NCBI GenBank assembly: GCA_007693585.1
Contig: REDH01000072.1
Location: 141,321 to 181,782 of the forward strand
Origin: Deltaproteobacteria bacterium
GTDB lineage: Bacteria > Myxococcota_A > Bradymonadia > REDH01
DNA length: 40,462 nt
Reading direction: 5' to 3'
Notes under the pieces: model-generated
What the model was told of the DNA's origin: nothing
Databases searched by the model: none
What the model saw: only the letters and a program-made list of their open reading frames with translations
In this document: positions 19 through 39,424 of the stretch, piece after piece
Numbering within the stretch: the first letter of the stretch is position 1
How the letters are laid out: each line of letters opens with the position of its first letter
Translations under genes and position numbers: made by a program

Positions 19-690
19 TCAACGCACAGGCGAAGGCATCTCGATGGACGCGAAGCTGGTATGCAGTGCTCCGAAGGTACTGCGCGCCCCCCGCACGACA
101 GCCTCGCACTCCCCCTCTCGCAGCGGCAACTCGTCCAGGCGTTCGATGAAGCTCCGCCACATGCGTCCGGTGTCGTTTCCGTATCCCGCGAAGAAGCGAT
201 GCGCGAGCTGCAGCTGGGGCATGGATTGTCTGGCAAGTCTCTCCTGGATGCGTGCCCCGAGGCTGGCCCCTTCCATGACATAGGCCGCACCAATGCTCTC
301 CGGGTCATCGGGCCCTGCTGCCCGTATCCGCGCGGCAAGGGAAAGTATCGGTTCCCGCACGCACGGTGCTGGAAAGACTCCGAGTGACTCGAGTTCCGAA
401 GTATCCTGGTCGGCCAGCTGAGCGCGTCGTCGGTCCCGGGTCAGGAGCCGGGAGAGTCGCCCGAATGGCGGTCCCGTGCAGGCGGCGCTTTCGAGCGCGA
501 GAAGTAGCGTTCGATAGAGATACAGTTGGGCAAGATACACGGAGGGCGTGAGACGGGCTTCGAGGAGTGCGGAGTGCGCAGGCACCTGTTCGATGCGAGC
601 ATGGTCAGCCCGCGTCTGCTCGCGCAACGCCCGGGCGAGGCTGGACGGGACGGAGCTCGTTTCCGGATTCGAAAGGGATTCAAGGTCCAT
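19..690 (-). CDS. bphO: Heme oxygenase, bacteriophytochrome-associated (BphO) type
   Basis: The 223-residue product looks like a biliverdin-forming heme oxygenase, which opens heme to biliverdin, CO and iron in the cytoplasm using an electron donor such as ferredoxin. Seen: the N-terminal ALREQTRADH segment places H30 where the proximal heme-ligand histidine of the family lies. The distal-helix motif AYVMEGASLG (137-145) carries the glycines that bend over heme, and FFAGYGNDTGRMW (167-178) matches the family's C-terminal helix. Length is normal. The ATG at 690 is preceded by GGAGGAG at good spacing. The gene lies 36 bp downstream of the histidine kinase on the same strand, so the two probably form one transcript. 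A bacteriophytochrome and a phycobiliprotein-like gene lie within 15 kb, so the biliverdin made here is their likely chromophore source (inference). Family assignment is firm; the partner is inferred. Confidence 0.88.
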   Translation of the reverse strand: MDLESLSNPETSSVPSSLARALREQTRADHARIEQVPAHSALLEARLTPSVYLAQLYLYRTLLLALESAACTGPPFGRLSRLLTRDRRRAQLADQDTSELESLGVFPAPCVREPILSLAARIRAAGPDDPESIGAAYVMEGASLGARIQERLARQSMPQLQLAHRFFAGYGNDTGRMWRSFIERLDELPLREGECEAVVRGARSTFGALHTSFASIEMPSPVR

Positions 691-726: not shown

Positions 727-1497
727 TCAAGGAAGTCGGACTGGCAGGTTGATCGATACGCGATGCAGGCGCGCCCGGTTGTCACGGCGTGGTGGAGTCG
801 ACGTTGGGCGCATCGTCTTCCGGGAGGCCGCGGGTGCGAACGACGCTGCTGCCTCCCCTTGTCCGGCGTCGTTCGGCAACGGTCCGGACGGTCCGTTGTG
901 TTCGAGCAGCAGCACAACGGAGTCACTCGATGACGATGAGTTCACCGTGAGGTGCACGACACGGTCCGACTGGCTCACCGCGCCAGGCTCCAGGGCGTGA
1001 AGCAGAGGCTCCAGGACGGCACGCGCCAGCGCGATGCGACAGGCATGGACTTCCAGCGACTCCGGAATGTCGACCCGAACCATGGCAGGATACGTACCAT
1101 GACTGCGCGCCGCGACGACGCATAGACCAATGAAGGAGGAAAGCAGGATCGTTGTCTCTCCGACCGGCTGCAGATACTCCCGGATGTCACGCAACCTCTC
1201 CCGAAGCTGATCGGCTCCCGCCTGCAGATCCTCGAGAACGGTCCTGGCGTCGCTTGCATCGTCAGCCTCGGTCAAGTCTGCGCGTTGAGGGATGACGTCC
1301 TGCAGATACTCGATGTTGCTGATCACGCAGCTCAGCGGATTGCTCATTTCGTGGGCCAGTGCGCCAAGCAGAAGGCGCTGGATGTCGGCGGCCGCAAGTG
1401 GTGTACTGTCAGAACTGGAACCCCGGTAAAGCACGTTATTCTCTCCACAGGTGAGACAGCCGGCGAAAAGGCTGCATCGTTCTGCACGGCTGTGCAT
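727..1497 (-). CDS. Small sensor-less histidine kinase with degenerate ATPase domain
   Basis: A cytoplasmic histidine-kinase-like protein of about 256 residues. The dimerisation/phosphoacceptor helix is clear: LLGALAHEMSNPLSCVISNI with H49. The catalytic lobe is weak. The N-box region reads RAVLEPLLHALE instead of the usual asparagine-rich form, the G1 region reads EHNGPSGP, and no GxGLGL G2 box is visible. The chain nevertheless ends in SINLPV as GHKL domains do, so it is divergent rather than cut short. No sensory domain or membrane segment is seen; only a Cys-rich stretch (CSLFAGCLTC) precedes the H-box. It is divergent from the sigma-54 response regulator, its likely partner, and precedes heme oxygenase. 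The start is uncertain. The frame stays open to a GTG at 1620, but that would leave only 20 bp to the divergent gene, so the ATG at 1497 is preferred. Confidence 0.72.
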   Translation of the reverse strand: MHSRAERCSLFAGCLTCGENNVLYRGSSSDSTPLAAADIQRLLLGALAHEMSNPLSCVISNIEYLQDVIPQRADLTEADDASDARTVLEDLQAGADQLRERLRDIREYLQPVGETTILLSSFIGLCVVAARSHGTYPAMVRVDIPESLEVHACRIALARAVLEPLLHALEPGAVSQSDRVVHLTVNSSSSSDSVVLLLEHNGPSGPLPNDAGQGEAAASFAPAASRKTMRPTSTPPRRDNRARLHRVSINLPVRLP

Positions 1498-1640
1498 CCA
1501 AAGCACGAAGCGTGACGGTCCCTGCCCACTGGCGCTCAACCGATGCAGCAGTACTGAAAATGGCTTCTGTGACGGCGTTCGGATCGTCAGGGCAGGCACG
1601 GGTGGAACGGCCCGCAGCACGAATCCTCCGGCTCAAGTCC

Positions 1641-3020
1641 ATGTCGACCCAACTTCCGCCAGTGAACATTGTCGTCTGCGATGATGACGAACGACTGCGA
1701 CGCAGTCTGGTGCGCACGCTCTCGGAGCAGGGGGCACATTGCATCGCCAGCCCCACGGGAGACGAAGCGCTCTCCGTCGTCCGCTCGCGCTCGGACATTG
1801 GCCTGCTCCTGCTCGATCTCATCATGCCGGGAATGGATGGTTTGCAGGTGCTGGAGCGCCTGCGCCGCGAGGGCTGCTCGGTGCCGGTCCTTCTCCTGAC
1901 CGCGAACGCCACGGTGGACCTTGCGGTGAGGGCGACAAAGCTGGGTTGCGTCAATGTCATGTCGAAACCTTATGGAAGACATGAGTTGGTGGCCCAGGTG
2001 CGTGAAGCGCTCGCCCTGCGCCCCGTTCATGGCAACGGTGGCGCTTCATCCGACGAGAAGCCCGGGTACGGCCGGCTCCTGGGCCAATCATCCGTTATGC
2101 AGGAACTGTTCCAGCGGCTTCGCAAAATGGAGAAGCTCCAGTTCACGGCGGTCCACATCCATGGAGAATCCGGTACAGGCAAGGAGCTTGTCGCACAGGA
2201 ACTCCACAAGCAAGGAATCCGCCATGAGCGGCCCTACGTCGAAGTCGACTGTTCAACCGTGCCGGAACCCCTGCTCGACAGCACGTTGTTCGGCCACGAG
2301 CGAGGAGCCTTCACGGACGCGCGCGCGACGCGGAAGGGGCTCTTCGAACTCGCGGATGACGGCATTCTCTTTCTCGACGAGATCGGTGAGCTCTCCGCGG
2401 CCGCGCAGGTGAAGCTGCTGCGTGTGCTGGAGGCCCGGACGTTCCGTCGCGTCGGTGGCTCGCGCAATCTCCCGGTACGCGCTGCCATCGTCACGGCGAC
2501 GAATCGCGACCTCGAGCTGGAGGCAACGCAGGGCCGGTTTCGGCAGGACCTCTACTATCGTCTCTCGGTCCTGCACCTCCACACGCCGGCCCTGCGGGAA
2601 CGACGAGAGGACATCGCTCTGCTGGCAGACCACTTCCTCGATGACTTCAGTCGACGCTACCGGCGGTCGCGTCGCCGCCTTGCGCCGGATGCGCTCGATA
2701 GCCTGCTCGCTTATGGCTGGCCAGGAAACGTCAGGGAGTTGCGCAATATCATGGAGCAAGTGGTTGTGTTCTCGGCCCGGCCGGATGTCCATCGGCGTGA
2801 CCTCCCCCCCGCACTGCAGTCCTTCATCCGTGGTGGGACGCCGGCCTTCACGGATACGCTGCAGCTTCCTGAGCATGGAATCCGTCTGAAGGATGTGGAG
2901 CGCTCGCTCGTCGAGCAGGCGCTGCACCGCACGGAGGGAAACCAGTCTGCCGCGGCCCGCCTGCTCGATATCTCCCGGCACACGTTTCGAACACTCATGA
3001 AGCGTTACGATCTGCTCTGA
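1641..3020 (+). CDS. NtrC-family sigma-54-dependent response regulator
   Basis: A 459-residue enhancer-binding transcription activator. Domains seen: a receiver (10-122) with the acidic pair at D14-D16, phosphoacceptor D59, T87 and K109; an AAA+ domain (about 145-375) with Walker A GESGTGKE (175-182), sigma-54 contact loop GAFTDA (222-227, a common natural variant of GAFTGA), Walker B GILFLDEIGE (241-250) and the R-finger region GRFRQDLYYRL; and a C-terminal Fis-type helix-turn-helix (about 425-457, ending NQSAAARLLDISRHTFRTL). The start at 1641 puts the receiver in its usual place; upstream in-frame codons add only low-complexity sequence. It is divergent from the histidine kinase and lies 488 bp upstream of a perfect -24/-12 promoter serving the large operon, which it most likely activates (inference). 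Phosphorylation by the neighbouring kinase or by the phytochrome system is possible. Confidence 0.93.
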   Translation: MSTQLPPVNIVVCDDDERLRRSLVRTLSEQGAHCIASPTGDEALSVVRSRSDIGLLLLDLIMPGMDGLQVLERLRREGCSVPVLLLTANATVDLAVRATKLGCVNVMSKPYGRHELVAQVREALALRPVHGNGGASSDEKPGYGRLLGQSSVMQELFQRLRKMEKLQFTAVHIHGESGTGKELVAQELHKQGIRHERPYVEVDCSTVPEPLLDSTLFGHERGAFTDARATRKGLFELADDGILFLDEIGELSAAAQVKLLRVLEARTFRRVGGSRNLPVRAAIVTATNRDLELEATQGRFRQDLYYRLSVLHLHTPALRERREDIALLADHFLDDFSRRYRRSRRRLAPDALDSLLAYGWPGNVRELRNIMEQVVVFSARPDVHRRDLPPALQSFIRGGTPAFTDTLQLPEHGIRLKDVERSLVEQALHRTEGNQSAAARLLDISRHTFRTLMKRYDLL

Positions 3021-3507: not shown

Positions 3508-3523
3508 TGGCACGCCAGTTGCA
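3508..3523 (+). promoter_or_regulatory. Sigma-54 (-24/-12) promoter
   Basis: TGGCACGCCAGTTGCA matches the consensus TGGCACGNNNNTTGCW at every defined position, with GG at 3509-3510 and GC at 3521-3522 separated by exactly ten bases. Transcription should start near 3533. That gives a leader of about 35 bases before the start at 3569, with GAGAGAGG (3555-3562) as ribosome-binding site. It is oriented toward the ten-gene operon. I found no equally good match in the other gene-free gaps. Confidence 0.85.
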
Positions 3524-3568: not shown

Positions 3569-3982
3569 ATGCCCATTGACCGAGACATTGACCTCGCCCC
3601 GAAAAGTGCCGTCACCGGAGGGGTACGCATGCCGGTGCTGTCGACTACACAGCGTTCCCCGACCGGCACAGGAGACTTCGCAGAGGTTCCGGGACAGCAT
3701 GCCGTCTGGGACGATGAGGGTCGATGCCTCCACCAGCCCGCCGATGGCGCCCAAACCTTGCGCGCTCACGGTGAACTCCTGCGCGCAGCGGCCGACATCG
3801 TCGCGACGGAACTCGGCGAAGAGGTCGTCCATGCCGAGTGCATGGATGTTCAGGATCGACACTGTATGCACCCGCTGCGGGGCGGCTGCGCCGTGGGTCC
3901 TGTGCACCTTGCCTCTGCGGAACAGGAACGCGAGCGCCGTCGGGCGCAGGCCCTCCTCGATGCGCTGCGGAGGACACCGTGA
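3569..3982 (+). CDS. Possible Roadblock/LC7-like small protein
   Basis: First gene of the sigma-54-driven operon, 137 residues. I do not recognise it with certainty. The middle has the alternation expected of a Roadblock/LC7 fold: a strand with a turn (QHAVWDDEGRCL), a long amphipathic helix (LLRAAADIVATELGEE), then strands (CMDVQDRHCMHPL and CAVGPVHLA), followed by a charged helical tail rich in Arg and Glu. Such proteins often pair with small GTPases or act as dimeric scaffolds; no GTPase is next to it. The ATG at 3569 is chosen over that at 3563 because GAGAGAGG ends at 3562. Its stop overlaps the next gene's GTG start (3979-3982), suggesting coupled translation. The fold call is inference. 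Confidence 0.6.
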   Translation: MPIDRDIDLAPKSAVTGGVRMPVLSTTQRSPTGTGDFAEVPGQHAVWDDEGRCLHQPADGAQTLRAHGELLRAAADIVATELGEEVVHAECMDVQDRHCMHPLRGGCAVGPVHLASAEQERERRRAQALLDALRRTP

Positions 3983-4830
3983 CGGGAGTGCGACAGACGC
4001 CCAGGGGAGTTCTCCACGTGCGACGGCTCCGGGAGGACCACGGCTGGTTTCCAGTGCGGGAAGCCGAGGCCTCGGCGGAGGAGGAGCGATGTGCAGAGAC
4101 ACTCGCCCACCTCCTTCTTGACGGCATGGCACACAACGGCCAGCTTCAGGTGCGCACGTCCGAACGACAGTTTCTCGCCGTTCGAGATGAGCGGGGCGTG
4201 CTCATCGGATGGGCATCGGGCATGACCCCTCTGGCGCAGCGTGCGGCAATGCTCCGGGCCGAGGCCGAGAATGCACGTTCTTCGATGGGCGTCTGGGACT
4301 CCACTCAGGCGCAGCACCCTCCAGGGACGGGCCCCAGAGTCGTGTCCGGCGGGCTTCCCGCTGGAGACACCCGAGAGCTGGCATCCTCGCCTCCTGCAAT
4401 TGCCGCCTCCCGAAGCTCCGGTGGCTTCCAGGACGACCTGCTGGAGTACGAGTTGGTCGTGGAGTCTGCCGTCTCGGGTGGCAAGGCTCCAGCCGCTGGG
4501 ACGGTTCGGGCCGCAGATGCGGCGTCCTGGCTTCTCGATGCGTTGAAGGCCACGCTTCCCGAGCTCGGAAGTGCGGTAGCGGCCAACTACTGGAGAGCTG
4601 CGCTAAGAGAGAACGCGCTCGACGGTCTGCTCAGGGTTTCCTTTCGTGGCGAGGTGGAGTGCCCATCGCCGCAAGCCCGGCTCGACGAAGAGGAGATCGA
4701 CGCGATGCTGAAGGCGGTACGGATGTGGGAAGAGCGGTGCCGAGCCGTGATCCCCGACTTCGCTGGCGTGATGCGGGGGCTCCCTGACGCTCCCTGGCAC
4801 GCACGCGAGATGACCCGGAGGAGTTCATGA
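3979..4830 (+). CDS. Operon protein of unknown function (283 aa)
   Basis: Soluble-looking protein with no family I recognise. The GTG start at 3979 overlaps the preceding stop, and its own stop overlaps the ferredoxin ATG (4827-4830). Two folded parts seem to be joined by a Pro/Ser/Gly-rich linker of about 60 residues. The N-terminal part (about 1-100) has a strand-helix-strand pattern (LAHLLLDGMAHNGQLQV, then QFLAVRDERGVLIGW). The C-terminal part (about 155-280) is helical with LLEYELVVESAV and SFRGEVECP strands and a final CRAVIPDF segment. I considered a ferredoxin-dependent bilin reductase because of length and neighbours, but saw no signature. Its position next to the ferredoxin and inside the coupled set suggests it works in the same complex or pathway. 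Confidence 0.7.
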   Translation: MTGVRQTPRGVLHVRRLREDHGWFPVREAEASAEEERCAETLAHLLLDGMAHNGQLQVRTSERQFLAVRDERGVLIGWASGMTPLAQRAAMLRAEAENARSSMGVWDSTQAQHPPGTGPRVVSGGLPAGDTRELASSPPAIAASRSSGGFQDDLLEYELVVESAVSGGKAPAAGTVRAADAASWLLDALKATLPELGSAVAANYWRAALRENALDGLLRVSFRGEVECPSPQARLDEEEIDAMLKAVRMWEERCRAVIPDFAGVMRGLPDAPWHAREMTRRSS

Positions 4831-5297
4831 AGCGAGTGGCGTTGACCACCATCAACCGAACGCCCGAGATCAAGACCCATGCACGGGTTCTCGACGCGCT
4901 GCTCGCCGAGGAAGTCGGTGTGATGATGGCTTGTGGCGGGCGTGGCCTCTGCGCGACGTGTCATGTGTATGTCGATGCGGGGCAGGAGGCCCTCACCGAC
5001 GTGACCGCCCGAGAGCAGCGCACGCTGAGCCGCCTCACCTCCGTGCGGGGAAACAGCCGGCTCGCCTGTCAGGCCCGCGTGTGCGGGGAAGGCGTTCGCG
5101 TGTCTCTCCCCGAGGGACTCTATGTCGTCAAGCAGCAGGACCTCGAGTCGATGATCGGCAAGCGGGCTTCGGCCAACATTCTCCATCCGATCACGGGTCG
5201 CATCCTCGCAGAAAAAGGGAAGATCATCACACGAAGCTTCATCATGCAACTGTCCGATCTCGACTACGACGTATCCACCGCACTGGCGGAGGACTGA
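4827..5297 (+). CDS. 2Fe-2S ferredoxin with C-terminal extension
   Basis: 156-residue electron-transfer protein. The cluster ligands are plain: ACGGRGLCATC gives C36, C42 and C45, with C81 in RLACQARV. The spacing C-x5-C-x2-C-x35-C is that of adrenodoxin-type rather than plant-type (C-x4-C) ferredoxins. The beta-grasp domain ends near residue 100. A further 50 residues (including ITGRILAEKGKIITRSF) have no counterpart in a simple ferredoxin and might dock a partner. The ATG overlaps the preceding stop as ATGA. It may supply electrons to heme oxygenase or to the V4R/globin partners of the operon; no dedicated reductase is visible in the window. Family firm, partner inferred. Confidence 0.9.
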   Translation: MKRVALTTINRTPEIKTHARVLDALLAEEVGVMMACGGRGLCATCHVYVDAGQEALTDVTAREQRTLSRLTSVRGNSRLACQARVCGEGVRVSLPEGLYVVKQQDLESMIGKRASANILHPITGRILAEKGKIITRSFIMQLSDLDYDVSTALAED

Positions 5298-5318: not shown

Positions 5319-5972
5319 ATGAGTGACCCGACGATTGGCCCCATGGCACGCAAGCACAACTACTACGGCAAGGAGGACTACCTCCGGAAGAAGCTCCGCG
5401 GAAGCGCCCTTGAGCTGGGCTACGGGGGGGTGGGCATGATGGCGACCGAAGACTTCATCGTCGGCCTGCAGGAGGGTTTGGAGAACGAGGTCGGCGAAGC
5501 CAGCGCGGTCATCATGTATCAGTGCGGGCTGGAGTGGGGGCGCATCGACATGCAACGCTTCCAGAAGCGCGTCTCCGAGGAGTTCGGGCGCTCGGCCAGA
5601 GAAATGAACGTCCAGTTCGTGCTCGAGACGTGGTGGTGGCCACTGACTGCAGCAGGGTGGGGTGGTTGGAACGTCGATCTGGGGCGGGTTCGTCAGGGCT
5701 TCATCGTGGTGGACCTCTTCAACTCTGCGGTGGCGCAGAGCCTCGAACTGGTCGGAAAGCCGGTCTGTCATCTGTACGCGGGCATGCTCGCAGGGAGCAT
5801 GAGCGTGTTCATTGGCAAGGACCTGAGCTGCATCGAGATCCAGTGCTACGCGATGGGCGAGGACCACTGCCGGTTCATGATCGGCAGTGAGAAGCGCATC
5901 GATGCGGCGGAGTTCTGGCTCAACGAGGGTGCGCGTGCTTCCGAGATCGTGCGACGCATGGGAGAGCAGTAG
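5319..5972 (+). CDS. V4R (4-vinyl-reductase-like) domain protein, first copy
   Basis: 217-residue cytoplasmic protein with a C-terminal V4R domain (about 120-190), the small-molecule-binding fold also found in BchJ-like proteins and in XylR/DmpR-type regulators. Diagnostic stretch: KPVCHLYAGMLAGSMSVFIG followed by CIEIQCYAMGEDHCRFMIG. Cysteines lie at C69, C150, C171, C176 and C184, the last four being the typical V4R set. The N-terminal half (YYGKEDYLRKKLRG; MYQCGLEWG) resembles the region preceding V4R in such regulators. Several tryptophans (105-107, 114, 117) make an aromatic patch that could bind a tetrapyrrole or a hydrophobic ligand (inference). GGAG precedes the ATG. It sits 21 bp after ferredoxin and 3 bp before the repeat protein. 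A second, diverged copy follows at 7532-8182. Confidence 0.88.
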   Translation: MSDPTIGPMARKHNYYGKEDYLRKKLRGSALELGYGGVGMMATEDFIVGLQEGLENEVGEASAVIMYQCGLEWGRIDMQRFQKRVSEEFGRSAREMNVQFVLETWWWPLTAAGWGGWNVDLGRVRQGFIVVDLFNSAVAQSLELVGKPVCHLYAGMLAGSMSVFIGKDLSCIEIQCYAMGEDHCRFMIGSEKRIDAAEFWLNEGARASEIVRRMGEQ

Positions 5973-5975
5973 GCC

Positions 5976-7034
5976 ATGGCCACCAAGTCAGCCCCACCGC
6001 CACTGCCCGGTGCCGAGGAGAGCGTATCGCTTCTCAACGCACTCGGAAGCAGCCCCAGTTCGCGTGTGCTTCGTCGACCAGCGAAGCCCAAGGCGACGGG
6101 TCCACAGGCCCGTCGCCCACTTCCAGCTCCGCCACCCAACCCGCAGTTCCGCCCTGGTCTGTCCGACGAAGCCCCCCGCGCAGCATCCCGGGTGGGCCAG
6201 CGGCAGACTAGCGAGATGTCGCGCCCTCCTCTCCCCTCCGCGGGTGCAAGGAGAGGCGCCGCTCCGGTGCAGTCCCGTCGGGTCGGCCCTCCGGACGTCC
6301 CGTCCGCCACTCCGGAAGTGCCGGACATCGGGGACGTCGACTGGGACGGGCTCTGGAATCACATGACGGACTCCGCCGGAGCAAGCGAGGGGGATCGGTT
6401 GGCCGAAGAGGCAGACACCGGAGTCGGCGACGACCCGGAGCACCGCTCGTCGCCACCCACCAGCGTTCGGCTGATCCAGCCGATGCGTGTCCCGTCCAGT
6501 GGGGCCCCGGGGACGGCCCCGTCCATGGAGGGTCAGGAGACGGCTCGGAGTATCGCCGACGTCCGCCCGATCGACGCCAAGGTCGACCACTCCGCAGCCA
6601 TGTCCCGAAACCGGGAACTGACCTCGGAACAGCTTCCGGTGGAAGCCGCACCGGATGGGTATTCCCGGTCCGTCCGTGCTCGCTTCAGGGGGGTCTGGTG
6701 GACCGGGCGACCATCCACCACCGCGGACGAAAGTGCACCGTTGACCGCATCACGGCAGCGCCCTCGGCGCGGAATACCCCGCAGCGTGAGTGAGCAGTTC
6801 CGCATGATCGCATGGCGCGGCATGGATGCGCAGGACGCCTCGGCGCTGGCCGCGGACGAGCTCACGGTGCAGGAGCGCTTCGCAGAGCCCGTCACCCCGG
6901 AATCACCCCGCAGTGTTCGCCAGCAGTTCGGTGCCGTGAACTGGTCCCGAGCAGCCTCCCCCCACGTGGACTCGAAGGAGTCCACGCCCCGAGAACAAAC
7001 CGTGGAGAGCCTCTTTTCAGGCCTCGACTGGTAG
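5976..7034 (+). CDS. Disordered Pro/Arg-rich protein with repeated SVxxxFxxxxW motifs
   Basis: 352 residues, mostly Pro, Ala, Ser, Arg and Asp, with no predicted folded domain or membrane segment. What stands out is a short repeated motif in the C-terminal third: SRSVRARFRGVWW (about 230-242), PRSVSEQFRMIAW (about 268-280), PRSVRQQFGAVNW (about 311-323), and a last version TVESLFSGLDW that forms the very C-terminus. A fifth, looser tryptophan block (DVDWDGLWNHM) lies near residue 120. The consensus is (P/S)RSVxxxFxx(V/I)xW, spaced by about 38-43 residues of linker. This looks like a multivalent scaffold or linker whose motifs each dock a folded partner, with the V4R proteins or the globin encoded on either side as the best candidates. 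Function is inferred from layout only. Confidence 0.8.
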   Translation: MATKSAPPPLPGAEESVSLLNALGSSPSSRVLRRPAKPKATGPQARRPLPAPPPNPQFRPGLSDEAPRAASRVGQRQTSEMSRPPLPSAGARRGAAPVQSRRVGPPDVPSATPEVPDIGDVDWDGLWNHMTDSAGASEGDRLAEEADTGVGDDPEHRSSPPTSVRLIQPMRVPSSGAPGTAPSMEGQETARSIADVRPIDAKVDHSAAMSRNRELTSEQLPVEAAPDGYSRSVRARFRGVWWTGRPSTTADESAPLTASRQRPRRGIPRSVSEQFRMIAWRGMDAQDASALAADELTVQERFAEPVTPESPRSVRQQFGAVNWSRAASPHVDSKESTPREQTVESLFSGLDW

Positions 7035-7045: not shown

Positions 7046-7519
7046 ATGAACAGCGCAATGATGGAAATGATGACGACGGTGGAAGGCCGCTACCTCACGG
7101 ACGAGGAGGTCCAGCGAATCCATGCCTACTTCGAGGGATTCCGAAGCCGTGTCGATGCCATGCGGGCAATCGAGGCGAAAGAGGCGGCGATCGTCCGGGA
7201 CACGATCGACGAAGTCTGGGAGAAGCACCCGGACTTTCACACCAGACACCATGCGGCACGCGAGAAGGCGGTTCGCGACGTCACCCTGACGCTTCGCTAC
7301 TGCGCGCAGGCCATGGTTCGGGAGGATGAGGAGTTTCTCGCCGAGAAGCTGCTGTTCTGGCTGCGGACCATCCTCCGATCCTTCAACATGGGTCAGGTGA
7401 TCGATACCACCTACCGAACGCTCGCACGCAAGGCGGAGGCTCATCTGGAGCCGCAGCATCTCGAGTTGCTCGGACCGTACCTGCGACAGACCCACCGACT
7501 GCTCACCCTCGATCGCTGA
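7046..7519 (+). CDS. Phycobiliprotein-like globin (BBAG-like), no canonical bilin cysteine
   Basis: 157 residues, all-helical, the size of an allophycocyanin subunit. Features shared with phycobiliproteins: an N-terminal EGRYLTDEEVQRI (like ARYLSPxELxxI), a helix ending VWEKHPD (like LFQKRPD), and AVRDVTLTLRY (75-85) matching the CLRDxxYxLRL signature. Then EEFLAEKLLFWLRTILRSFNMG matches the helix pair around the subunit's IxEIGLxGVREMYNSLG. The Arg-Asp pair that contacts bilin is kept (R77, D78), but the attachment cysteine is alanine (A75). The only cysteine is C86, eleven residues on. It may bind bilin non-covalently, bind heme, or only share the fold. Relatives called bilin-biosynthesis-associated globins are known from heterotrophic bacteria. 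A GGAGA ribosome site precedes the ATG at 7046. Assignment is by motif reading, not by search. Confidence 0.78.
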   Translation: MNSAMMEMMTTVEGRYLTDEEVQRIHAYFEGFRSRVDAMRAIEAKEAAIVRDTIDEVWEKHPDFHTRHHAAREKAVRDVTLTLRYCAQAMVREDEEFLAEKLLFWLRTILRSFNMGQVIDTTYRTLARKAEAHLEPQHLELLGPYLRQTHRLLTLDR

Positions 7520-7531: not shown

Positions 7532-8182
7532 ATGGACCTTATCCATGACGCATTCCGTCCGCGGCCCTATGTCCTTCGGGACACCTACCTGCGGACATCG
7601 GCCTTCGAAGGCACCATTCACACCGAAGGCGGCCAGCGAGTGATGGTGCTTCCCGAGGAACTGATTCAGGGCCTTCACCGTGCAGTGGAGCATGAGACCG
7701 GGCGTGCGGCATCGCTGATCCTCTACGGCTGCGGACGCCGCTGGGGTGAGCGCATGATCGAGCGGTGGCGCGGAGAGTGGCGTGAATACTACGATGCCAA
7801 GATCGAGGACGCTGATTACACCGCATTCGAAGCCTTCCTGGTGGTTGTCTTTGCGGACCATGGCTGGGGTTCACTCGAAGTGGACTTCGCCATGGCCGAA
7901 GAAGGCCTGCTCGAGTTTCGCCTTCGCAACAGCGTGTTCGCACGCCTCATCACCGGCACCGAGCAGCCAGTGGTCGATCACATCTTCACCGGCTTCTTCG
8001 CCGCCATTGCGAGCGCATTCAGTGGAGAGACGCTGGATGCGATCGAAATCGCTTCAACGCGTTCCGGCGCTCCGGCCTGTCGATTCATCGTCGCACTTCC
8101 CGATCGCATCGATCGGGCCCGGGAGCGCGCTCTCGACGGTGCAACCGGCGACGAGCTGCTCGCAACGCTCAGGAGCAGCTGA
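7532..8182 (+). CDS. V4R-like domain protein, second diverged copy
   Basis: 216 residues, related along its length to the V4R protein at 5319-5972: shared YGCGRRWG (YQCGLEWG there), a central FEAFLVVVFADHGWGSLEVDF (FVLETWWWPLTAAGWGGWNVD there) and a C-terminal domain VVDHIFTGFFAAIASAFSGETLDAIEI ending PACRFIVALP. Only C67 and C183 remain of the five cysteines of the first copy; the PVC position is PVVD and the CIEIQC pair is lost. A heterodimer with one ligand-binding and one structural subunit is a reasonable guess. It starts 12 bp after the globin gene with AGGAGA as ribosome site, and its TGA shares a base with the ParA start, so translation is probably coupled. Confidence 0.82.
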   Translation: MDLIHDAFRPRPYVLRDTYLRTSAFEGTIHTEGGQRVMVLPEELIQGLHRAVEHETGRAASLILYGCGRRWGERMIERWRGEWREYYDAKIEDADYTAFEAFLVVVFADHGWGSLEVDFAMAEEGLLEFRLRNSVFARLITGTEQPVVDHIFTGFFAAIASAFSGETLDAIEIASTRSGAPACRFIVALPDRIDRARERALDGATGDELLATLRSS

Positions 8183-8961
8183 TGCACATCCTTGCCATCG
8201 CAAGTGCGAAGGGAGGCGTGGGGAAGAGCACGGTGGCCAGCCATCTGTCCGGTGCGCTTGCGTTCAAGGGTGCCGAGGTTCTGCTTGTCGACGCAGACCC
8301 ACAGGGAGGATCTACGTGTGCGGTTGGGGCGGGGGTGCCACAGGAACACCTCGCATTCACCGCGCAGTTGCTGTCCGGTGCGCAGCTCGCCACACAACGA
8401 ATCGGGAGCATGCCCGGCCTGCGCGTCGTCGGCGCACGACCAGATGTCGACAGCCTTCAGCTCACGTTTCCGCAAGGACACCTCCGCGCGCATCTTGAAC
8501 GGGTCACGCCCGTGCCTGACTTCGTCATCCTCGACCTTGCACCTTCCCTTGAGCCACTCACTCTCGCCTGCCTTGGCGATGCAGACGGAACCCTCGTCGT
8601 GCTGACCCCCACAGCACTCACACTCCGAACGCTCCCCACACTACTTCAGGAACTCCGTCACGCCTGTCCCCATGCTTCCGTGGAAGGGCTGCTCATCAAT
8701 CATCTCGGAGCAGTCGGGGGAACAGCGAAACTCGTTCTCCGCTCCGTGCACGAGCGCTTCGGGGACTGGGTGTTCCCTGTCGAGCTTCCCGAGGATGAGT
8801 GTATCCAGCGCGCCATGCTCGAAGGACACCTGGTCTTCTGGGAGGATGAAACTTCCCCCTCCTCACGCGCCTTTCTGCGCATGGCGGACGAGCTTCTGAT
8901 CAGATACCCGGGTCATGCCGACCCCGACGAACCGATATCGGGAGTGGAAGCGAGAGAATGA
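8182..8961 (+). CDS. ParA/MinD-type partition ATPase
   Basis: 259-residue deviant-Walker ATPase. Walker A' is KGGVGKST (10-17) with the signature lysine K10. VDADPQGGS is switch I-like, and FVILDLAPSLEPL contains the Walker B aspartate. Members dimerise with ATP on nucleoid DNA or membrane and position plasmids, chromosomes, chemoreceptor arrays, carboxysomes or other cargo. No ParB, parS-like repeat or replication gene is nearby, and the gene is embedded in the metabolic/sensory operon with 1- and 4-base overlaps on both sides. Cargo positioning of a protein assembly therefore fits better than plasmid partition (inference). The partner that stimulates hydrolysis could be one of the disordered proteins encoded in the operon. 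Confidence 0.9.
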   Translation: MHILAIASAKGGVGKSTVASHLSGALAFKGAEVLLVDADPQGGSTCAVGAGVPQEHLAFTAQLLSGAQLATQRIGSMPGLRVVGARPDVDSLQLTFPQGHLRAHLERVTPVPDFVILDLAPSLEPLTLACLGDADGTLVVLTPTALTLRTLPTLLQELRHACPHASVEGLLINHLGAVGGTAKLVLRSVHERFGDWVFPVELPEDECIQRAMLEGHLVFWEDETSPSSRAFLRMADELLIRYPGHADPDEPISGVEARE

Positions 8962-10748
8962 ACCATCCCTTCAAAGAGAGTGCGGTATCCCAGCCCCTCA
9001 CGATCGGAGGCAATTCCGTACTGGAGGGACGGTGGCGTATCGACCAGTTTCTAGGCGCTGGCGCCTTCGGCCGAGTCTACTCGGCTCGAGATCTGAAATC
9101 GGGGCAACGCGTGGCGATCAAGGCCTTCGACCGAGCCACTTCCGAAGCCGGGTATCTGTCCGAACTGGCCATGCTGTTCGCCGAGGAACACCCGAATGTC
9201 GTTCCGACGCGTTCCTTCGGATACCTCGCCGGGCAGAAGTACATCGTCTACGACTTCATTCCAGGAGGGACTCTTCGCGAGTGTCTGGTCCGCGAGAAGC
9301 GCCTGTCGGGCACGGTCTCGCTGTCCGTGGCCGCCGATATCGTCGAGGCGCTCGCGTTCGCACATGAACGGCGGATCGTTCACAACGATCTCAAGCCCGA
9401 GAACCTGTTGCTCTCCACAGCGAACTGGCCGTTCCGTGTCATGGTCTGCGACTTCGGTCTGGCCGCGAGGCTGCAGGATGCACCATCCGCAGCCACCAAC
9501 ATGGGGTCGCCCGCATACATGGCACCCGAGCAGTTCGGAGATCGACAGGACCACCGGGCAGACTATTACGCACTGGGGGTCATCCTCTACGAGTGCCTCT
9601 TTGGTCGTCGCCCCTTCGCCGGTGACCCGATCGCCCTGCGCCACGCGCATCGCAACATAGAGCCCACTTTCCCCAGCCGCGCTCCACGAGCGCTGCTCGA
9701 TCTGCTGCGTGGACTGCTCGCCAAGAACCCGGAGGAGCGCTTCGACACTCCCGACCGCCTGCGAGAGGCAATCGCACGGGCGATGGACAACACGAAAAGT
9801 CAGCGCACGGCTCATGTCCCCGCGCCAGAGTACATCTCCGCTCCCGAGCCCATACCACTGTTCACGCTCAGACTCCGCCACGCGCCGATCGGTCTTGTCC
9901 CAGCATGCCCGAGGAGTCTGCTCCTCCACTTTCCCAACCAGGTCGCGCGTCTCACCCAGGACGGACATCCACTTTCGCTGTTCCGTGCCCCCGCGAGCAC
10001 CGAGGATCATTTCCCCTCGCACAGCGCTTCCGAAGCGCACGCATGGATTCATGGCGGACAACTCATCTGGTGGAGAGAGGACCAGGTCCGGTCCTTCCCC
10101 GTTCCCGCAGCCGCAACGGGATTCAGCCGCGTTGCGCTCCATCCCGTGCAGGACCTCGTGGCCATCGTCTCGACGGATGCTGTCCGTCTACTGCTGGGGG
10201 ACGGCACCGTCAGCGTCCATGCCGACTTCGCGAGCTACGGCTCACCGCCACCGATCGCCTTTTCCAATGATGGTCAGGTGCTCTTTCTGGCCACGGAAGC
10301 CCCACGCACGCAACTCGTGGCCATGACACTGGACGGAAACGTGATCGCCCGCACCCCCGCCGATGCCGGTGACCCCATTCTCTGCCCCATCGGTTCCGAT
10401 CACATGATCATCGGCGGGGCCGGCCGAGGAACACTCCACTGTTTCGGCCCCGATGGCTTCCTCGTGCAGCGGCACGACAGTCACGCGCGAATCCATGACA
10501 TCCAGCCTGCGGGTCGTGATCGGGTGGCTATCCTCGGCAGTTCGAAGATCGAAGTCCTGCGATGGGAACCGCCCGATGCGCAGACGCACCCGAGCATGGC
10601 GTTCGGACACCTACTTTCACGTCCTCCGGATGGAGGTCAACTCCTTCTCAGCGACGATACCCTGTACTCCGTCCTGCGTCAGGGCGATGCAGCCACCATA
10701 CGGGCCTTCCAACTACCCGACAGCCTGCAGGGAGATCCACAGCCATGA
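8958..10748 (+). CDS. Ser/Thr protein kinase with C-terminal beta-propeller-like domain
   Basis: 596 residues. The Hanks-type kinase domain (about 25-285) has glycine loop GAGAFGRV, K55 in VAIK, E69, catalytic loop HNDLKPEN (142-149, D144), DFG (165-167), and APE as APEQF. The catalytic loop has Asn where most kinases have Arg (HRD), so activation-loop control probably differs. After a short linker, residues of about 300-590 form repeated four-strand-like units (for example FSRVALHPVQDLVAIVS, IAFSNDGQVLFLAT, HDIQPAGRDRVAILGSSKIEVLRW) typical of a WD40-like propeller. There is no membrane segment, so the kinase is cytoplasmic unless held by the next gene product. The ATG overlaps the ParA stop (ATGA), and its own stop overlaps the next ATG. 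Confidence 0.9.
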   Translation: MNHPFKESAVSQPLTIGGNSVLEGRWRIDQFLGAGAFGRVYSARDLKSGQRVAIKAFDRATSEAGYLSELAMLFAEEHPNVVPTRSFGYLAGQKYIVYDFIPGGTLRECLVREKRLSGTVSLSVAADIVEALAFAHERRIVHNDLKPENLLLSTANWPFRVMVCDFGLAARLQDAPSAATNMGSPAYMAPEQFGDRQDHRADYYALGVILYECLFGRRPFAGDPIALRHAHRNIEPTFPSRAPRALLDLLRGLLAKNPEERFDTPDRLREAIARAMDNTKSQRTAHVPAPEYISAPEPIPLFTLRLRHAPIGLVPACPRSLLLHFPNQVARLTQDGHPLSLFRAPASTEDHFPSHSASEAHAWIHGGQLIWWREDQVRSFPVPAAATGFSRVALHPVQDLVAIVSTDAVRLLLGDGTVSVHADFASYGSPPPIAFSNDGQVLFLATEAPRTQLVAMTLDGNVIARTPADAGDPILCPIGSDHMIIGGAGRGTLHCFGPDGFLVQRHDSHARIHDIQPAGRDRVAILGSSKIEVLRWEPPDAQTHPSMAFGHLLSRPPDGGQLLLSDDTLYSVLRQGDAATIRAFQLPDSLQGDPQP

Positions 10749-12170: not shown

Positions 12171-15100
12171 CTAGCCATCGCCTGACAGAGCGCCCATCAG
12201 ATCATTGATGTCAAAGGGTTTTCCGATGAACCGCACGTTGAGTTCCTGCAGACGTTGCTGCCACTGTGTCAGGCGTTCCGAGAAACCACTGACGAGCACG
12301 AGACGCGCTTCCGGCAGCACGCGACGGACTTCGTCCACGATCTCGAGCGCACCGGCGCCTCCAGACACCATGACATCCATGACGCATGCGACACTCCTGC
12401 CCGAATCAGCCGATGTCCAGGCGTGTTCCACCAGATCTCGACCGTCCGCAAAACCGTGCACCGACAGTCCACGACGCCGCAGCAACCGACTCAACGCATC
12501 GCGCTGGCGCGGATCATCCTCGAGCAGCCACACCTGACACACCGCGCACCGTTCTCCCGGCTCCTCGCTCGACGAGGGCGCAGCGATTGCTCTCCAGTTT
12601 CCGCTCTTCAATGAATCCAGAACTCGCGGCGACGTCAGCGCTCGCCCCCACAACTCCGGGTCAGGCTGGGTCGGAAGGTACACCAGGAACTCCGCTCCAG
12701 GCTCACCTGCGTTGGTGAGGCGGATGCCGCCCCCCATCCGTTCCATGAACGTTCTGGCGACATAGAGTCCCAGTCCTGTCCCGCCCTCTCGTTGCGTCAT
12801 GTATGCGTTGAACAGAGTATCCGCGACATGAAGGGGTACCCCGGGCCCGTCGTCCCTGACCCGAATCGCCACCAGCAACCTGCCATTCTCATCAGGCTCG
12901 ACTCCCGCACTTGCCCAAAGCCCCCCTTGGTCCTGCATCAGCTGGCGCGCGTTCAGCAGAAGGTTGAACAGGACCTGCCGCAGCAGACCCTCGTCCGCAA
13001 CGACCTGCAGGTCGTCTTCCGGCACGCGCACCACGGCCTTGATCGCAGAGCCACGCAGAGCGAAAGTCATGCACTCCCTCAGGAACTCGGAAACCACGAG
13101 GGTCACGGGCTTGATGGGCTGGTCTCGGGTGAAGGCCTGCAACTGGCGAGCCACCACACCTGCTTCATGGAGATGTCGACGAAGGTCGCCCAATCGCTCC
13201 AGAAGCTCCTCACCCGTTGGACGCTCTTCCTCGAGGAGCTGTACCTCCGCGATCATTGCCATGAGATAGTTATTGAAGTCGTGCACGATACCTCGCGCAA
13301 GTGCCTCCGTTGCCTTGCGCCTCGCATTCTGGATCTCGCGCTCCCGCAAAGCCCTCTGGCTGGAAATGTCCGTGGTGAGTCCTGTCCAGACCGATCCTCC
13401 TGTCCCTTCGGGATCGAGCGTCATTGCACCTGCCGTGCGCACCCACACCAACCCTCGCTCCGGGTGTTCGACCCTGTACTCGAACTCACCCGTTGTCCGC
13501 AGGGAGATGATCTGCTCCAGGTTCGCGGACAGCTTTGCACGGTCTGCTGCATCCACACACGACAGGACATCGTCGAGGCTGATCGCAGCCTTCCCGACGA
13601 GGCTCGGAAAGAGCGCACGCAGCTGGCCGCCGATGAACGAAAATGAGTGTTTCCCGCAGGCATCGACCCGTAACTGGAAGAGCACCCCGGGGACGTGCTC
13701 CAGCAGCGCCCGCAGCCGCGCATCGCGCTCCAGCACCTCCTCCATGAGCACCTGCTGCTCCGTGATGTCCCGAATCACCCCCCGGATCGAGCCCACGGCA
13801 CCCGCAGCGTCCAGCACCGGCTCCCCGGTCGACTCCACCCACCGCACCTCCGCGGCCTGCGTCCGGATCCGCGCCTGGAACCGAAAGGGCACCCGCTCCC
13901 CCACGGCCTCCTCGACCGCCGAAGACACCAGCGGCCGATCCTCCGGAACATAGAACGCGATGGCCTCCGCCAGCGTGACCGGCGTCCCGGGCTCCAGCCC
14001 ATGAATCCGATACGTCTCCTCTGACCAGACCGGCAGACGTTCGTCGGTGAACACCTCCCAGTGCCCGAGACGGGCCAGCCGCCCGGCCGCCGTGAAGAGC
14101 ATGTTCGCCTTGCGCACCGCCTCCAGAGCCTCCAGCAGCCGCACACGATCCGCTTCCTGTTCCGTCACGTCCCGAACCATCGCCACCGCCTCGGACCCCG
14201 AAAGCCTCGCGATGCGCGCATGGAACGAGCGCGACCCTGCCGGCATATCCAGCGGGTAGCGTACATCGAGGACCGAGGCCCCCGCTCCCAGATCCTCCAG
14301 CGCTCCCATCAGAAGACCGCGGGCCGGCTCCGGAAGCACCTCGCGGAAGGAACGCCCGAGGAACGCCGCCGGCGAGGCATACAGCGCAGTCGCGTCCTGC
14401 GCGTGAAAGTCCAGAATCCGGCCGTCCAGACCGAGCACGAACAGGAGATCCGGCACCGCCCGCAGAACCGCCTCCGCCCGGGCGCGCGTCTCCAGCAGCT
14501 CCCGGCTCGTCCGACGCTGATCGGCGCGAAGCATGCCGTGGGCGAGAAGCTCGGCCACCCGCTCCAGATGTCCCACCTCCTCCGGCGTCCACGGGCGGCT
14601 GCGACCGCGGCGCTCATGGGTCCACGCCGCGAACGATCGGCGCGGGCTGATCTCGCCGGTCTCCGGGTCCTCCTCGTAGGCCTGCCCGGGATCTCCGCCC
14701 CAGCGCACACGGTGAGGCCACGGCGCACGCAGCGCGACCAGCCAGCTGTCCCCCTCCACGCCCGGTAGCCGCACGCAGGCCATCCCGGCGTACCGGGGCA
14801 GGAGCGCATCCCTCAACGCCTCGGGCGGCGTCTCCAGAAGCAATGCTCCCGCCTCCGGGGAGCGCGAAGCCAGCCAGGCCTCGAGCGGCTCAAGCACCGA
14901 GTCCGGCAACGATCCCGGCACCGACTCGTCGCGCCCCTCTCCCGGGGACACCACGAGCACCTGCTCGGCGGCCAGAGGCTCGGCGATCTCCTGACGCAGC
15001 AGGTCATCGAGACGGGTCCGAGAACCCATGCGCTCCAGTCCCGCCTGCAACCGACGCGCATGAAGGTCCAGCGCTGACCTCCGGCGTGATCGCATCGTCA

Positions 15101-16016
15101 GCTCCACCCCCTGAACCTCCGCGGCGATGTGCTCGGTGAGCCCCAGCAGCAGCTCGCGGTGCAACCCGCAGGGGCGCCTGGCAGAGCCGTGGTGGCAGGC
15201 GATCAGTCCCCAGAGCGCCCCGTCGACCACCAGGCTCGTCACGAAGGTCCCGCACACCCCCATGTTGCGCAGGTACTGCAGATGCGTCGGCGCCAGGGCA
15301 CGGGCCGGACAATGCCGCAGATCGGGGTGGATGCCGGCTCCGGGAGAGCCGCGCAGCGAGGCCATGGGCACCCGCGCATCCACCAGGAGGCGCATGCGCT
15401 CCTCCAGATACAGTGCCCGCGCCGACTCCGGAATGTCCGAGGCCGGATAGTGCAGCCCGAGGTACGGCTCCAGCTCCGGCTGGCGGGCTTCACCCACGAC
15501 CTCTCCGTGCCCGTCCGCGTGAAAGCGGTACATCATCACCCGATCGTACCCGGACAGCTCGCGAAACACCGTGCATGACTCGCGCGCGAGGTCCTCGATG
15601 GCGGAGCACCCACCGACCCGCTGCATCGCCTCCGTCATCTGCGCCACCCCCGGCAGCGCGATGCCCGACGGTTCCTCCACCGCCAGCACCCAGCAGGTCT
15701 CATTCACCGTGAAAGTCCCCTCGAGCTGCTCCCCACTGACGGCCGGCACGCAGATCGATTGGTAAGTCCGAAGACCCGGGAGACCCGAACACAGTCCTCG
15801 GCGCAGCCCCTGGACGACCTCCCGCAACTCCCGCCCGAGAAGCCGGGCCGACTCCGCCTCCCCCATCCAGCGCGGCGCCGCGGACGCCCACTCGATCACC
15901 TCCGCTCCCCGAGGCCCGGCGAGCACGAAGGCGAACGGCTGCACCTCCAGACCCTCCGCCAGCGGCTGGGACTCGCACCAGCGGGGAACCAGCGCTGCAC
16001 CTTCGGAACGGTTCAT
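12171..16016 (-). CDS. bphP: Bacteriophytochrome hybrid histidine kinase (PAS-GAF-PHY-PAS3-HK-REC)
   Basis: 1281-residue red/far-red photoreceptor kinase. C14 in PRWCESQPL stands where biliverdin is attached in bacteriophytochromes, though the following QPHG is QPFA. The GAF domain carries PASDIP (191-196, D194) and the chromophore-pocket histidine H245 in APTHLQYL. The PHY domain has the tongue motif PRRSF (458-462). Then come three PAS domains (about 515-630, 655-770 and 775-890), phosphoacceptor box ALARGIVHDFNNYL (about 905-918), an ATPase domain (NLLLNARQ, DDGPGVP, GGTGLGLYVA) and a receiver at the end (about 1160-1278: LEDD, MDVMV, KPF). The C-terminal 520 residues resemble the neighbouring kinase, and base composition changes near 13740. 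It lies 67 bp downstream of that kinase on the same strand. Photoreceptor assignment is firm. Confidence 0.93.
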   Translation of the reverse strand: MNRSEGAALVPRWCESQPLAEGLEVQPFAFVLAGPRGAEVIEWASAAPRWMGEAESARLLGRELREVVQGLRRGLCSGLPGLRTYQSICVPAVSGEQLEGTFTVNETCWVLAVEEPSGIALPGVAQMTEAMQRVGGCSAIEDLARESCTVFRELSGYDRVMMYRFHADGHGEVVGEARQPELEPYLGLHYPASDIPESARALYLEERMRLLVDARVPMASLRGSPGAGIHPDLRHCPARALAPTHLQYLRNMGVCGTFVTSLVVDGALWGLIACHHGSARRPCGLHRELLLGLTEHIAAEVQGVELTMRSRRRSALDLHARRLQAGLERMGSRTRLDDLLRQEIAEPLAAEQVLVVSPGEGRDESVPGSLPDSVLEPLEAWLASRSPEAGALLLETPPEALRDALLPRYAGMACVRLPGVEGDSWLVALRAPWPHRVRWGGDPGQAYEEDPETGEISPRRSFAAWTHERRGRSRPWTPEEVGHLERVAELLAHGMLRADQRRTSRELLETRARAEAVLRAVPDLLFVLGLDGRILDFHAQDATALYASPAAFLGRSFREVLPEPARGLLMGALEDLGAGASVLDVRYPLDMPAGSRSFHARIARLSGSEAVAMVRDVTEQEADRVRLLEALEAVRKANMLFTAAGRLARLGHWEVFTDERLPVWSEETYRIHGLEPGTPVTLAEAIAFYVPEDRPLVSSAVEEAVGERVPFRFQARIRTQAAEVRWVESTGEPVLDAAGAVGSIRGVIRDITEQQVLMEEVLERDARLRALLEHVPGVLFQLRVDACGKHSFSFIGGQLRALFPSLVGKAAISLDDVLSCVDAADRAKLSANLEQIISLRTTGEFEYRVEHPERGLVWVRTAGAMTLDPEGTGGSVWTGLTTDISSQRALREREIQNARRKATEALARGIVHDFNNYLMAMIAEVQLLEEERPTGEELLERLGDLRRHLHEAGVVARQLQAFTRDQPIKPVTLVVSEFLRECMTFALRGSAIKAVVRVPEDDLQVVADEGLLRQVLFNLLLNARQLMQDQGGLWASAGVEPDENGRLLVAIRVRDDGPGVPLHVADTLFNAYMTQREGGTGLGLYVARTFMERMGGGIRLTNAGEPGAEFLVYLPTQPDPELWGRALTSPRVLDSLKSGNWRAIAAPSSSEEPGERCAVCQVWLLEDDPRQRDALSRLLRRRGLSVHGFADGRDLVEHAWTSADSGRSVACVMDVMVSGGAGALEIVDEVRRVLPEARLVLVSGFSERLTQWQQRLQELNVRFIGKPFDINDLMGALSGDG

Positions 16017-16083: not shown

Positions 16084-17634
16084 TCAGCCACTGTACCCGA
16101 GAATGCGCATCAACTCCTTAAAGCGAAAGGGCTTCGGAAGAAAAGACACCTGCGCGGCCCGGAGGTGCTCGCGCCACTCCGGCCACCGGTTCGCGTACCC
16201 GCTCATGAGCACGATCCGCGCATTCGGAAAACGGTCCCGCAGCCCTGTCGCCAATTCGAGCCCCCCGGACCCGGAGGCCACCACCACGTCCATCAGAAAG
16301 ACGATCGTCGGCTCGTCACTGCCCAGGAGAGGCAGGACGTCCATCATCTCCTCGCCCGTGGCATGGGTCCGCACGGAGAACCCCGCGCGGCCGAGCAGGC
16401 GCTCGAGCACACGGCGCTGCCTCGGATCGTCGTCGAGCACGTGCACGAGGGTGCCTCCGGGGCCCGTCCCCATGCCGTGCAGGGTGTCCCAGTCCGCACT
16501 GCGCGAGTGGACCGAGCTCGTCCCCTGCGCCGCCGGCAGGAGCAGCTCGAAACGGGCCCCCCGCAACTGCAACGGCGGCCGCACGTGGATCTCCCCCCCA
16601 AGACGGTCCAGCAGAGTGTGAACCACATGCAGCCCCAGACCCGAACCCTCCGGTCGAGTGGACCAGTACGGCTCGAAGATCCGCTCCCGATCCTCCAGCG
16701 CGATGCCCGGACCATCATCCTCCACCGAGACCATCACCCGCTCGCCCGGACCGTTCCACGACTCGGCCTGCAGCGTGACCTGCACCACCCCCTGCTCCCC
16801 CATCGCCTGCCGGGCATTGAGGATCACGTTGACCAGCACCTGCTGCAGCAGGTTCCGATCGGCCAGGATCGGCGGCACATCCCCCGTCACCGTCCAGGCC
16901 CCGCGCACCGCCGAGCCGCGGAGCGCGAAGATGATCACCTCACGCACGAACGACACCGCATCCAGCGCCTCCACCTGCATCGGCTGCTCGCGGGTGAACG
17001 CCAGGAGCTGCCGCGCGATGGTCCGGGCATCCTCGATGTCCCGCACCAGCGCCCGGGCCAGCCCCCGCGTGTCCGGATCATACGGATCCGCTCCCACCAG
17101 AAGCTCCGCCGTCCCCAGCAGCGCCGCGAGGTGGTTGTTGAACTCATGGGCGACCCCCCCGGCCATCCGCGCCACCGCATCCCGACGACTTTCCTCCAGA
17201 CGCTGCGCTTCCGAGTGGCGCACCTCCGTGACGTCCCGCACATGGCCGGTCCATCCCAACCCCTCATCGAGGAAGAGCTCCGGGATCGCCCGAAGCTCCA
17301 GCTCGCGCACCCCTCGCTCCGGGTGCAGCACCCGAAACCCCGTCCGCCACTCCCGGGGGTTCGACCAGTATGCCTCCCCTTCCTTCGCCAGACGGGCCAG
17401 GGAAGCGGGCTCGATGTGGCGGTGCAGCGCGCTCGACTCCGCGCGCGCCTCCTCCGCCGTCACCCCGAACAGCATCTCCACGTCGCCCGAGACCCAGCGC
17501 AGATACTCCGAACCGTCCGCGCGCCGGGAGAGCTGATAGAGCACCCCGGGCACCACCCGAGACACCGCACGCCAACGCGCTTCGAGCGCCCGGAGGGCGC
17601 CTTCCATTCCACGCTCGGGGGCTGAATCGTCCAT
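16084..17634 (-). CDS. PAS hybrid histidine kinase with receiver domain
   Basis: 516-residue cytoplasmic signalling kinase. One PAS domain (about 20-135, with VPGVLYQL and VLHPERG), phosphoacceptor box MAGGVAHEFNNHLAALLG (about 155), ATPase domain with N-box NVILNARQAMG, DDGPGI and GSGLGLHVVHTLLDRLGG, then a receiver (about 390-514) with DDDPRQR, MDVVV as phosphoacceptor segment and PKPF. It is a full-length paralogue of the C-terminal 520 residues of the bacteriophytochrome downstream (shared FTR-QP, FALRGSA and HPERG motifs), with which it probably forms an operon. Start ATG at 17634 has GGGAGA before it; the frame is open further upstream but that part is low-complexity. With no sensor of its own it may work in a relay with the phytochrome. 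Confidence 0.92.
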   Translation of the reverse strand: MDDSAPERGMEGALRALEARWRAVSRVVPGVLYQLSRRADGSEYLRWVSGDVEMLFGVTAEEARAESSALHRHIEPASLARLAKEGEAYWSNPREWRTGFRVLHPERGVRELELRAIPELFLDEGLGWTGHVRDVTEVRHSEAQRLEESRRDAVARMAGGVAHEFNNHLAALLGTAELLVGADPYDPDTRGLARALVRDIEDARTIARQLLAFTREQPMQVEALDAVSFVREVIIFALRGSAVRGAWTVTGDVPPILADRNLLQQVLVNVILNARQAMGEQGVVQVTLQAESWNGPGERVMVSVEDDGPGIALEDRERIFEPYWSTRPEGSGLGLHVVHTLLDRLGGEIHVRPPLQLRGARFELLLPAAQGTSSVHSRSADWDTLHGMGTGPGGTLVHVLDDDPRQRRVLERLLGRAGFSVRTHATGEEMMDVLPLLGSDEPTIVFLMDVVVASGSGGLELATGLRDRFPNARIVLMSGYANRWPEWREHLRAAQVSFLPKPFRFKELMRILGYSG

Positions 17635-26400: not shown

Positions 26401-28101
<1,701 letters not shown>

Positions 28102-39301: not shown

Positions 39302-39424
39302 GAGACCCCGAGCGCAGGCCCCCGCTCGGGGATGCGTGGGCTGGCCGCGGAGGTGCACCGTGTTCGAGGAACGGACCGGACGGTGCCTCCATGGACAACA
39401 GCCAGGCCCGAACGAATGCATGGC

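Follow-up and report, generated by a model that had tools for sequence, protein, structure and literature searches.

A phycobiliprotein-fold globin without the bilin-attachment cysteine in a Myxococcota V4R/2Fe-2S gene cluster, and the loss of this cysteine among its relatives

We analyzed a stretch of 40,462 nucleotides (hereafter, the window) from contig REDH01000072.1 of a non-photosynthetic Deltaproteobacteria bacterium, in which a gene for a phycobiliprotein-like globin lies between the genes of two V4R proteins. The genes and features around it are as follows.

19..690, minus strand: heme oxygenase (PF01126, E 5e-13)
727..1620, minus strand: putative histidine kinase fragment (HisKA 25.1 bits, just below the cut-off of 26.9)
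1512..3020, plus strand: NtrC-type response regulator with a sigma-54 activation domain; a homologue lies beside the second cluster of the genome
3508..3523, plus strand: exact sigma-54 (-24/-12) consensus match, TGGCACNNNNNTTGCW, between the NtrC-type regulator and ORF4
3838..4830, plus strand: ORF4, true start uncertain; no Pfam match; recurs near heme oxygenase, BBAG and FDBR genes
4827..5297, plus strand: 2Fe-2S ferredoxin-like protein (Fer2; PF00111, E 4e-10); homologues lie beside every BBAG
5319..5972, plus strand: V4R protein A, best conserved of the cluster proteins (PF02830, E 1e-17; 356 bits to L029)
5976..7034, plus strand: W-motif protein of 352 residues, low-complexity and probably disordered, with four motif copies
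6669..6707, plus strand: W-motif copy 1, SVRARFRGVWWTG
6783..6821, plus strand: W-motif copy 2, SVSEQFRMIAWRG
6912..6950, plus strand: W-motif copy 3, SVRQQFGAVNWSR
6999..7031, plus strand: W-motif copy 4, at the C-terminus, TVESLFSGLDW
7046..7519, plus strand: BBAG-type phycobiliprotein-like globin of 157 residues (Pfam, model and alignment)
7532..8182, plus strand: V4R protein B, divergent (V4R match E 0.003, below the cut-off)
8182..8961, plus strand: ParA/MinD-type ATPase, present in L029 as well
8958..10748, plus strand: Ser/Thr protein kinase with a C-terminal extension (PF00069, E 2e-46)
12171..16016, minus strand: bacteriophytochrome hybrid kinase (GAF-PHY-PAS-HATPase-REC)

The product of heme oxygenase is biliverdin, and the bacteriophytochrome carries the only PHY domain of the genome. 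Two photolyase-like genes (24318-25745, plus strand; 38597-39421, minus strand) share the window with the phytochrome and the globin. Further, the genes between an aldehyde dehydrogenase (17370-19331, plus strand) and a sigma-54 activator with XylR_N and V4R domains (26401-28119, minus strand) resemble an aromatic-compound degradation region.

Next, we analyzed the sequence and fold of the globin. Its motifs are RYLT (residues 15-18), KHPD (60-63) and AVRDVTLTLRY (75-85), and C86 is its only cysteine. In an alignment of 24 sequences, including eight phycobiliproteins from cyanobacterial plasmids, A75 was placed under the cysteine of the CxRD motif and R77-D78 under its Arg-Asp pair; HMMER alignments of the family profile gave the same placement. 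The Pfam Phycobilisome profile (PF00502) matched the globin at E 2e-21, with 77 bits against a cut-off of 22.2. When a profile of the globin and seven relatives was searched against the PDB, 179 distinct sequences were found at E ≤ 0.001, the best 60 of which were phycobiliproteins throughout. The AlphaFold2 model (five sequences) was all-helical with a pLDDT of 87.4 and a pTM of 0.82, and its best 50 PDB matches, with TM scores of 0.72-0.84, were phycobiliproteins only. The window globin is a phycobiliprotein-fold protein that lacks the attachment cysteine. The first-pass annotation had read its length, its motifs, the replacement of the bilin cysteine by A75, the retained Arg-Asp pair and the lone C86 correctly, as well as the heme oxygenase and phytochrome close by. 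The structure prediction that it had named as a check gave a phycobiliprotein-type globin fold.

Its neighbours (the 2Fe-2S protein, two V4R proteins and heme oxygenase) and its tree position identify this protein as one of the bilin biosynthesis-associated globins (BBAGs), which were described as a family in 2023. As reported by Rockwell et al., the BBAG cluster consists of a 2Fe-2S protein, two V4R proteins and the BBAG, and in many cases heme oxygenase and a bilin reductase are present too (PMC10151467). In our tree, where BBAGs are the globins of V4R/2Fe-2S clusters and published BBAG sequences are not included by name, a BBAG clade of 13 rows was separated from the phycobiliproteins at 100/99 support. 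The window globin fell outside the light-harvesting phycobiliprotein clade and grouped with these BBAGs. It carries A75-V-R77-D78 in place of the CxRD cysteine of light-harvesting members, and its NCBIfam equivalog scores were all far under the cut-off. Many phycobiliproteins have a loop of ~5 residues ahead of the motif, which the BBAGs lack. As expected of BBAG-1 and BBAG-3, the 2Fe-2S and two V4R genes are adjacent, and heme oxygenase and bilin reductase genes occur in the genome. With respect to BBAG-2, no RGMC motif was found in the globin and no B12-binding domain among the Pfam matches of its neighbours. The first-pass description as phycobiliprotein-like was right about the fold but missed both the membership in this already known family (PMC10151467) and a second copy in the genome. 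Judged by cluster position, the Fer2 protein (4827-5297) belongs to the family of Synechocystis Slr0148. Published work further established that CXRD is present in only "some" BBAG members, that BBAGs tested in E. coli bound bilin without lyases, that BBAG-2 has no CXRD and binds biliverdin with an RGMC cysteine motif instead, and that the BBAG-1 protein POZ53552 has the cysteine yet was poorly chromophorylated (PMC10151467).

The second BBAG cluster of the genome, at G000:C131, has the order NtrC-type regulator, ORF4, 2Fe-2S, V4R-A, W-motif ORF, BBAG, V4R-B and kinase. No ParA/MinD-type ATPase gene was seen in this cluster, and no homologue of the histidine kinase was found beside it. Its globin is 55% identical to that of the window and reads GERD, thus also being without the bilin cysteine. 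The genome contains two heme oxygenase genes, one near each cluster. A genome search with the Pfam bilin reductase profile (PF05996) gave 0 matches at the curated cut-off. By comparison with bilin reductases of other Myxococcota, a divergent enzyme was located a few kilobases from the C131 cluster, with 103 bits to the G352 enzyme, 20.7 bits to PF05996 against a cut-off of 31, and a single copy in the genome:

L045 1721-2794 (G000:C131), minus strand: divergent ferredoxin-dependent bilin reductase, below the PF05996 cut-off

A bilin reductase is present in this genome despite the negative Pfam search. That cysteine loss tracks the absence of a reductase had first looked true because of the 0 Pfam matches; this reading was rejected on account of the divergent enzyme. 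The L029 and Nannocystis genomes also have a bilin reductase, and G365 carries one within its cluster yet its BBAG is Cys-less. The phycobilisome linker (PF00427) and CpeS-type lyase (PF09367) were absent from the genome, while a control genome was positive. The ORF4 family, which recurs in C131, L029 and G214, has a conserved C-terminal domain with an NYWR motif (window 3838-4830; L045 11416-12894; L029 15007-16149; L049 127-1203).

The region was also scanned for promoters. When the window was shuffled 20 times by mononucleotide, the mean number of exact sigma-54 matches such as that at 3508-3523 was 0; with as many as 2 mismatches allowed, matches were at chance level, so that only the exact one stands out. 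Scans for sigma-70 promoters and terminators gave nothing beyond chance. At C131, one-mismatch sigma-54 sites (L045 12760, minus strand; 16503, plus strand) precede ORF4 and, by 72 bases, the start of the heme oxygenase gene; they are near chance level and only suggestive. We found no mention of a sigma-54 promoter match at a BBAG cluster in the published main texts.

We then compared the cluster with its relatives. Among 379 Myxococcota genomes, 11 had a PF00502 match and 14 a PF05996 match. The clusters examined were those of G000 (two), G214, G218, G265 (two), G320, G352, G365, the MAG M3003 (L029) and Nannocystis (L032), with two Acaryochloris plasmids as the cyanobacterial sample; four related loci were found using a 4-row alignment as the query. 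The set of 2Fe-2S, V4R-A, W-motif ORF, BBAG, V4R-B and kinase genes recurs in Myxococcota, with V4R-B orthologues in the equivalent position, and the Acaryochloris plasmids carry its components except the kinase. Six BBAGs lack the cysteine, its position being occupied by A in the window, G in C131, T in G214, G in G265b, G in G365 and V in G320a, and the other seven keep it.

In the phycobiliprotein pocket, the Arg-Asp pair holds the bilin rings. This pair is kept in 6/6 of the Cys-less BBAGs. In contrast, cysteine, Arg and Asp are jointly gone from three degenerate globins, namely the second globin of G320 and two Acaryochloris globins. Loss of the cysteine is therefore distinct from loss of the site, although the conservation of the pair could be partly structural. 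Degenerate second globins in BBAG clusters were located at L036 6237-6737, L037 6242-6739 and L043 4952-5407. ApcE2 and ApcD3 hold bilin non-covalently in a phycobiliprotein pocket without the cysteine thioether (PMC10810746). Given this precedent and the retained Arg-Asp pair, the window globin is predicted to retain bilin binding, with the non-covalent mode as the likeliest, as had also been favoured in the first-pass annotation.

Alternatively, bilin binding may have been wholly lost, leaving the globin as a structural subunit of a V4R/2Fe-2S complex. The attachment cysteine is indeed missing in both genome copies, and second globins in some clusters (G320b, Acaryochloris) are without the entire site. 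However, R77-D78 is found in every well-aligning Cys-less BBAG, unlike in the degenerate globins, and each of the two clusters has a heme oxygenase gene nearby; we consider a complete loss unlikely.

The first-pass annotation had also offered C86, eleven residues further on the same helix, as a covalent attachment site. C86 is the only cysteine of the window globin and is shared by all four members of its clade (window, C131, G214 and L029), and eleven residues correspond to about three helical turns, which would bring it to the same face as residue 75. Nevertheless, the usual A-ring site is ~16 angstroms away from C86 along the helix. It is carried by 4/6 Cys-less and 3/7 Cys-bearing BBAGs, being absent from Cys-less G265b and G320a and present in the CxRD-bearing L029, G218 and Nannocystis proteins. 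Since it occurs in members that keep CxRD, C86 is no replacement, and it was rejected as a compensating site. The column otherwise holds A, T, V, I or S and looks like a small buried packing position, making covalent attachment through C86 improbable. Binding of heme rather than bilin, as in an ordinary globin, would suit the globin fold, but the sequence and structure matches are phycobiliproteins and the recurring neighbours are bilin genes, which leaves very little room for it.

The history of the cysteine was then analyzed with a tree built from the concatenated sequences of four cluster proteins (2Fe-2S, V4R-A, BBAG and V4R-B). One clade, at 100/100, comprised the window, C131, G214 and L029; L029, the closest outside relative, has CTRD. 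A single Cys-less clade was rejected (p-AU 5.6e-55), and the well-supported branches force at least 4 changes at the cysteine position in this small sample, where the long branch of G320 makes its placement uncertain. The outgroup phycobiliproteins have the cysteine in 8/8. Because L029 is CTRD and the Cys-less members are not one clade, the loss appears secondary and recurrent; repeated, secondary loss of the bilin cysteine within BBAGs is the simplest reading, repeated gain instead being formally possible. The remaining suggestion of the first-pass annotation, an early branch of the phycobiliprotein family that never bore the cysteine, would fit the lack of linker and CpeS-type lyase matches in the genome, but it fails because the Cys-less BBAGs are scattered among Cys-bearing ones, with L029 inside the window's own clade and the cysteine in all eight outgroup proteins, and we give it almost no credence.

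The gene between V4R-A and the BBAG encodes the W-motif protein, whose four V-x3-F-x2-hydrophobic-x-W copies are at residues 233-242, 271-280, 314-323 and 343-352. A low-complexity W-motif ORF was found in each of 11 clusters, carrying between two and four motif copies, the last often at the C-terminal end, and no equivalent was found in G265b or G320 (compared, among others: window 5976-7034; L045 9730-10242; L029 9443-9913; L036 5873-6211). In the 11 orthologous ORFs, the core V-x3-F-x2-hydrophobic was observed 27 times against 1.1 expected (2000 shuffles, maximum 5), a test that overstates the weight somewhat because the motif was defined on the same proteins. Independent support comes from the constant place of the gene and from its occurrence as far away as Acaryochloris. 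Neither Pfam nor NCBIfam gave a match to the protein, and a model in which V4R-A was joined to it had a pLDDT of 35.

A Ser/Thr kinase was present at every Myxococcota BBAG cluster examined, mostly directly downstream of V4R-B or after ParA; the exceptions were G265b, where it precedes the 2Fe-2S gene, and G320, where it is further downstream. Myxococcota have many kinases, and adjacency, which alone is no proof, suggests that the kinase belongs to the BBAG module. Kinases of the window clade have one kinase domain and a C-terminal extension, several clusters of the other clade have two kinase domains or two kinase genes, and the window kinase has HND where HRD is expected (compared: window 8958-10748; L040 4764-7493; L030 11130-14093). 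In Synechocystis, the last gene of the corresponding operon is spkG, and ferredoxin 5 is no longer phosphorylated when spkG is deleted (PMC11863333); further, Slr0144-Slr0149 co-purify as a native complex (PMC9880817). Rockwell et al. set adjacent genes aside because these are often absent in cyanobacteria, and their main text does not name the W-motif protein, ParA or the kinase among the parts of the cluster (PMC10151467).

We propose that the window BBAG, in which the thioether cysteine is gone but the globin pocket and Arg-Asp pair remain, would bind its bilin non-covalently, the ligand being either biliverdin or a reduced bilin made by the divergent reductase near the second cluster. By analogy with the complex known for the Synechocystis relatives, it would join V4R-A, V4R-B and the 2Fe-2S protein in a complex as the subunit that carries the chromophore. 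The W-motif protein may serve as a flexible tether, and the signal would leave through the adjacent Ser/Thr kinase, a link drawn from gene order. We hold this proposal as a whole to be somewhat more probable than its negation. A wider view, put forward only tentatively, is that the BBAG cluster may serve non-photosynthetic bacteria as a conserved module for signalling in response to bilin. Here, the Cys-less BBAG would bind bilin reversibly, and the readout would be its occupancy in place of a permanent chromophore. The W-motif protein would tether the V4R and 2Fe-2S subunits, the cluster kinase would transmit the signal, and cyanobacteria would have inherited the same module.

New here are the repeated secondary loss of the cysteine while the Arg-Asp pair stayed in place, the presence of a bilin reductase in the genome, and the recurrence of the W-motif protein and the kinase at the clusters. 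Published arguments about phycobilisome origin rest on BBAGs as relatives, and independent cysteine losses with a retained Arg-Asp pair offer a natural comparison for whether bilin binding began from the cysteine or from the pocket. For BBAGs, including those of the cyanobacterial photosystem-repair operon, the W-motif protein and the kinase are testable partners.

Like the characterized BBAG-1 and BBAG-3, the window globin comes from a Myxococcota host and is encoded in a cluster with one 2Fe-2S and two V4R genes, which heme oxygenase and reductase genes often accompany; however, those proteins have CXRD and the window globin AVRD. Unlike their typical setting, the window cluster has no bilin reductase, one being near the second copy instead. 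BBAG-2 and the photoglobins are related Myxococcota globins that lie beside B12-binding proteins and bear an RGMC or CXQD motif, whereas the window globin has neither motif and belongs to the V4R-linked lineage. The Synechocystis slr0144-slr0152 operon (BBAG Slr0149, ferredoxin 5 and SpkG) has the same gene classes and a terminal Ser/Thr kinase, but is cyanobacterial and tied to photosystem repair; it is likened here by gene classes, the sequences compared being those of Acaryochloris. Similarly, ApcE2 and ApcD3 show a natural loss of the thioether in a phycobiliprotein, although, in contrast to the window globin, they are true light-harvesting proteins that carry phycocyanobilin in far-red phycobilisome cores.
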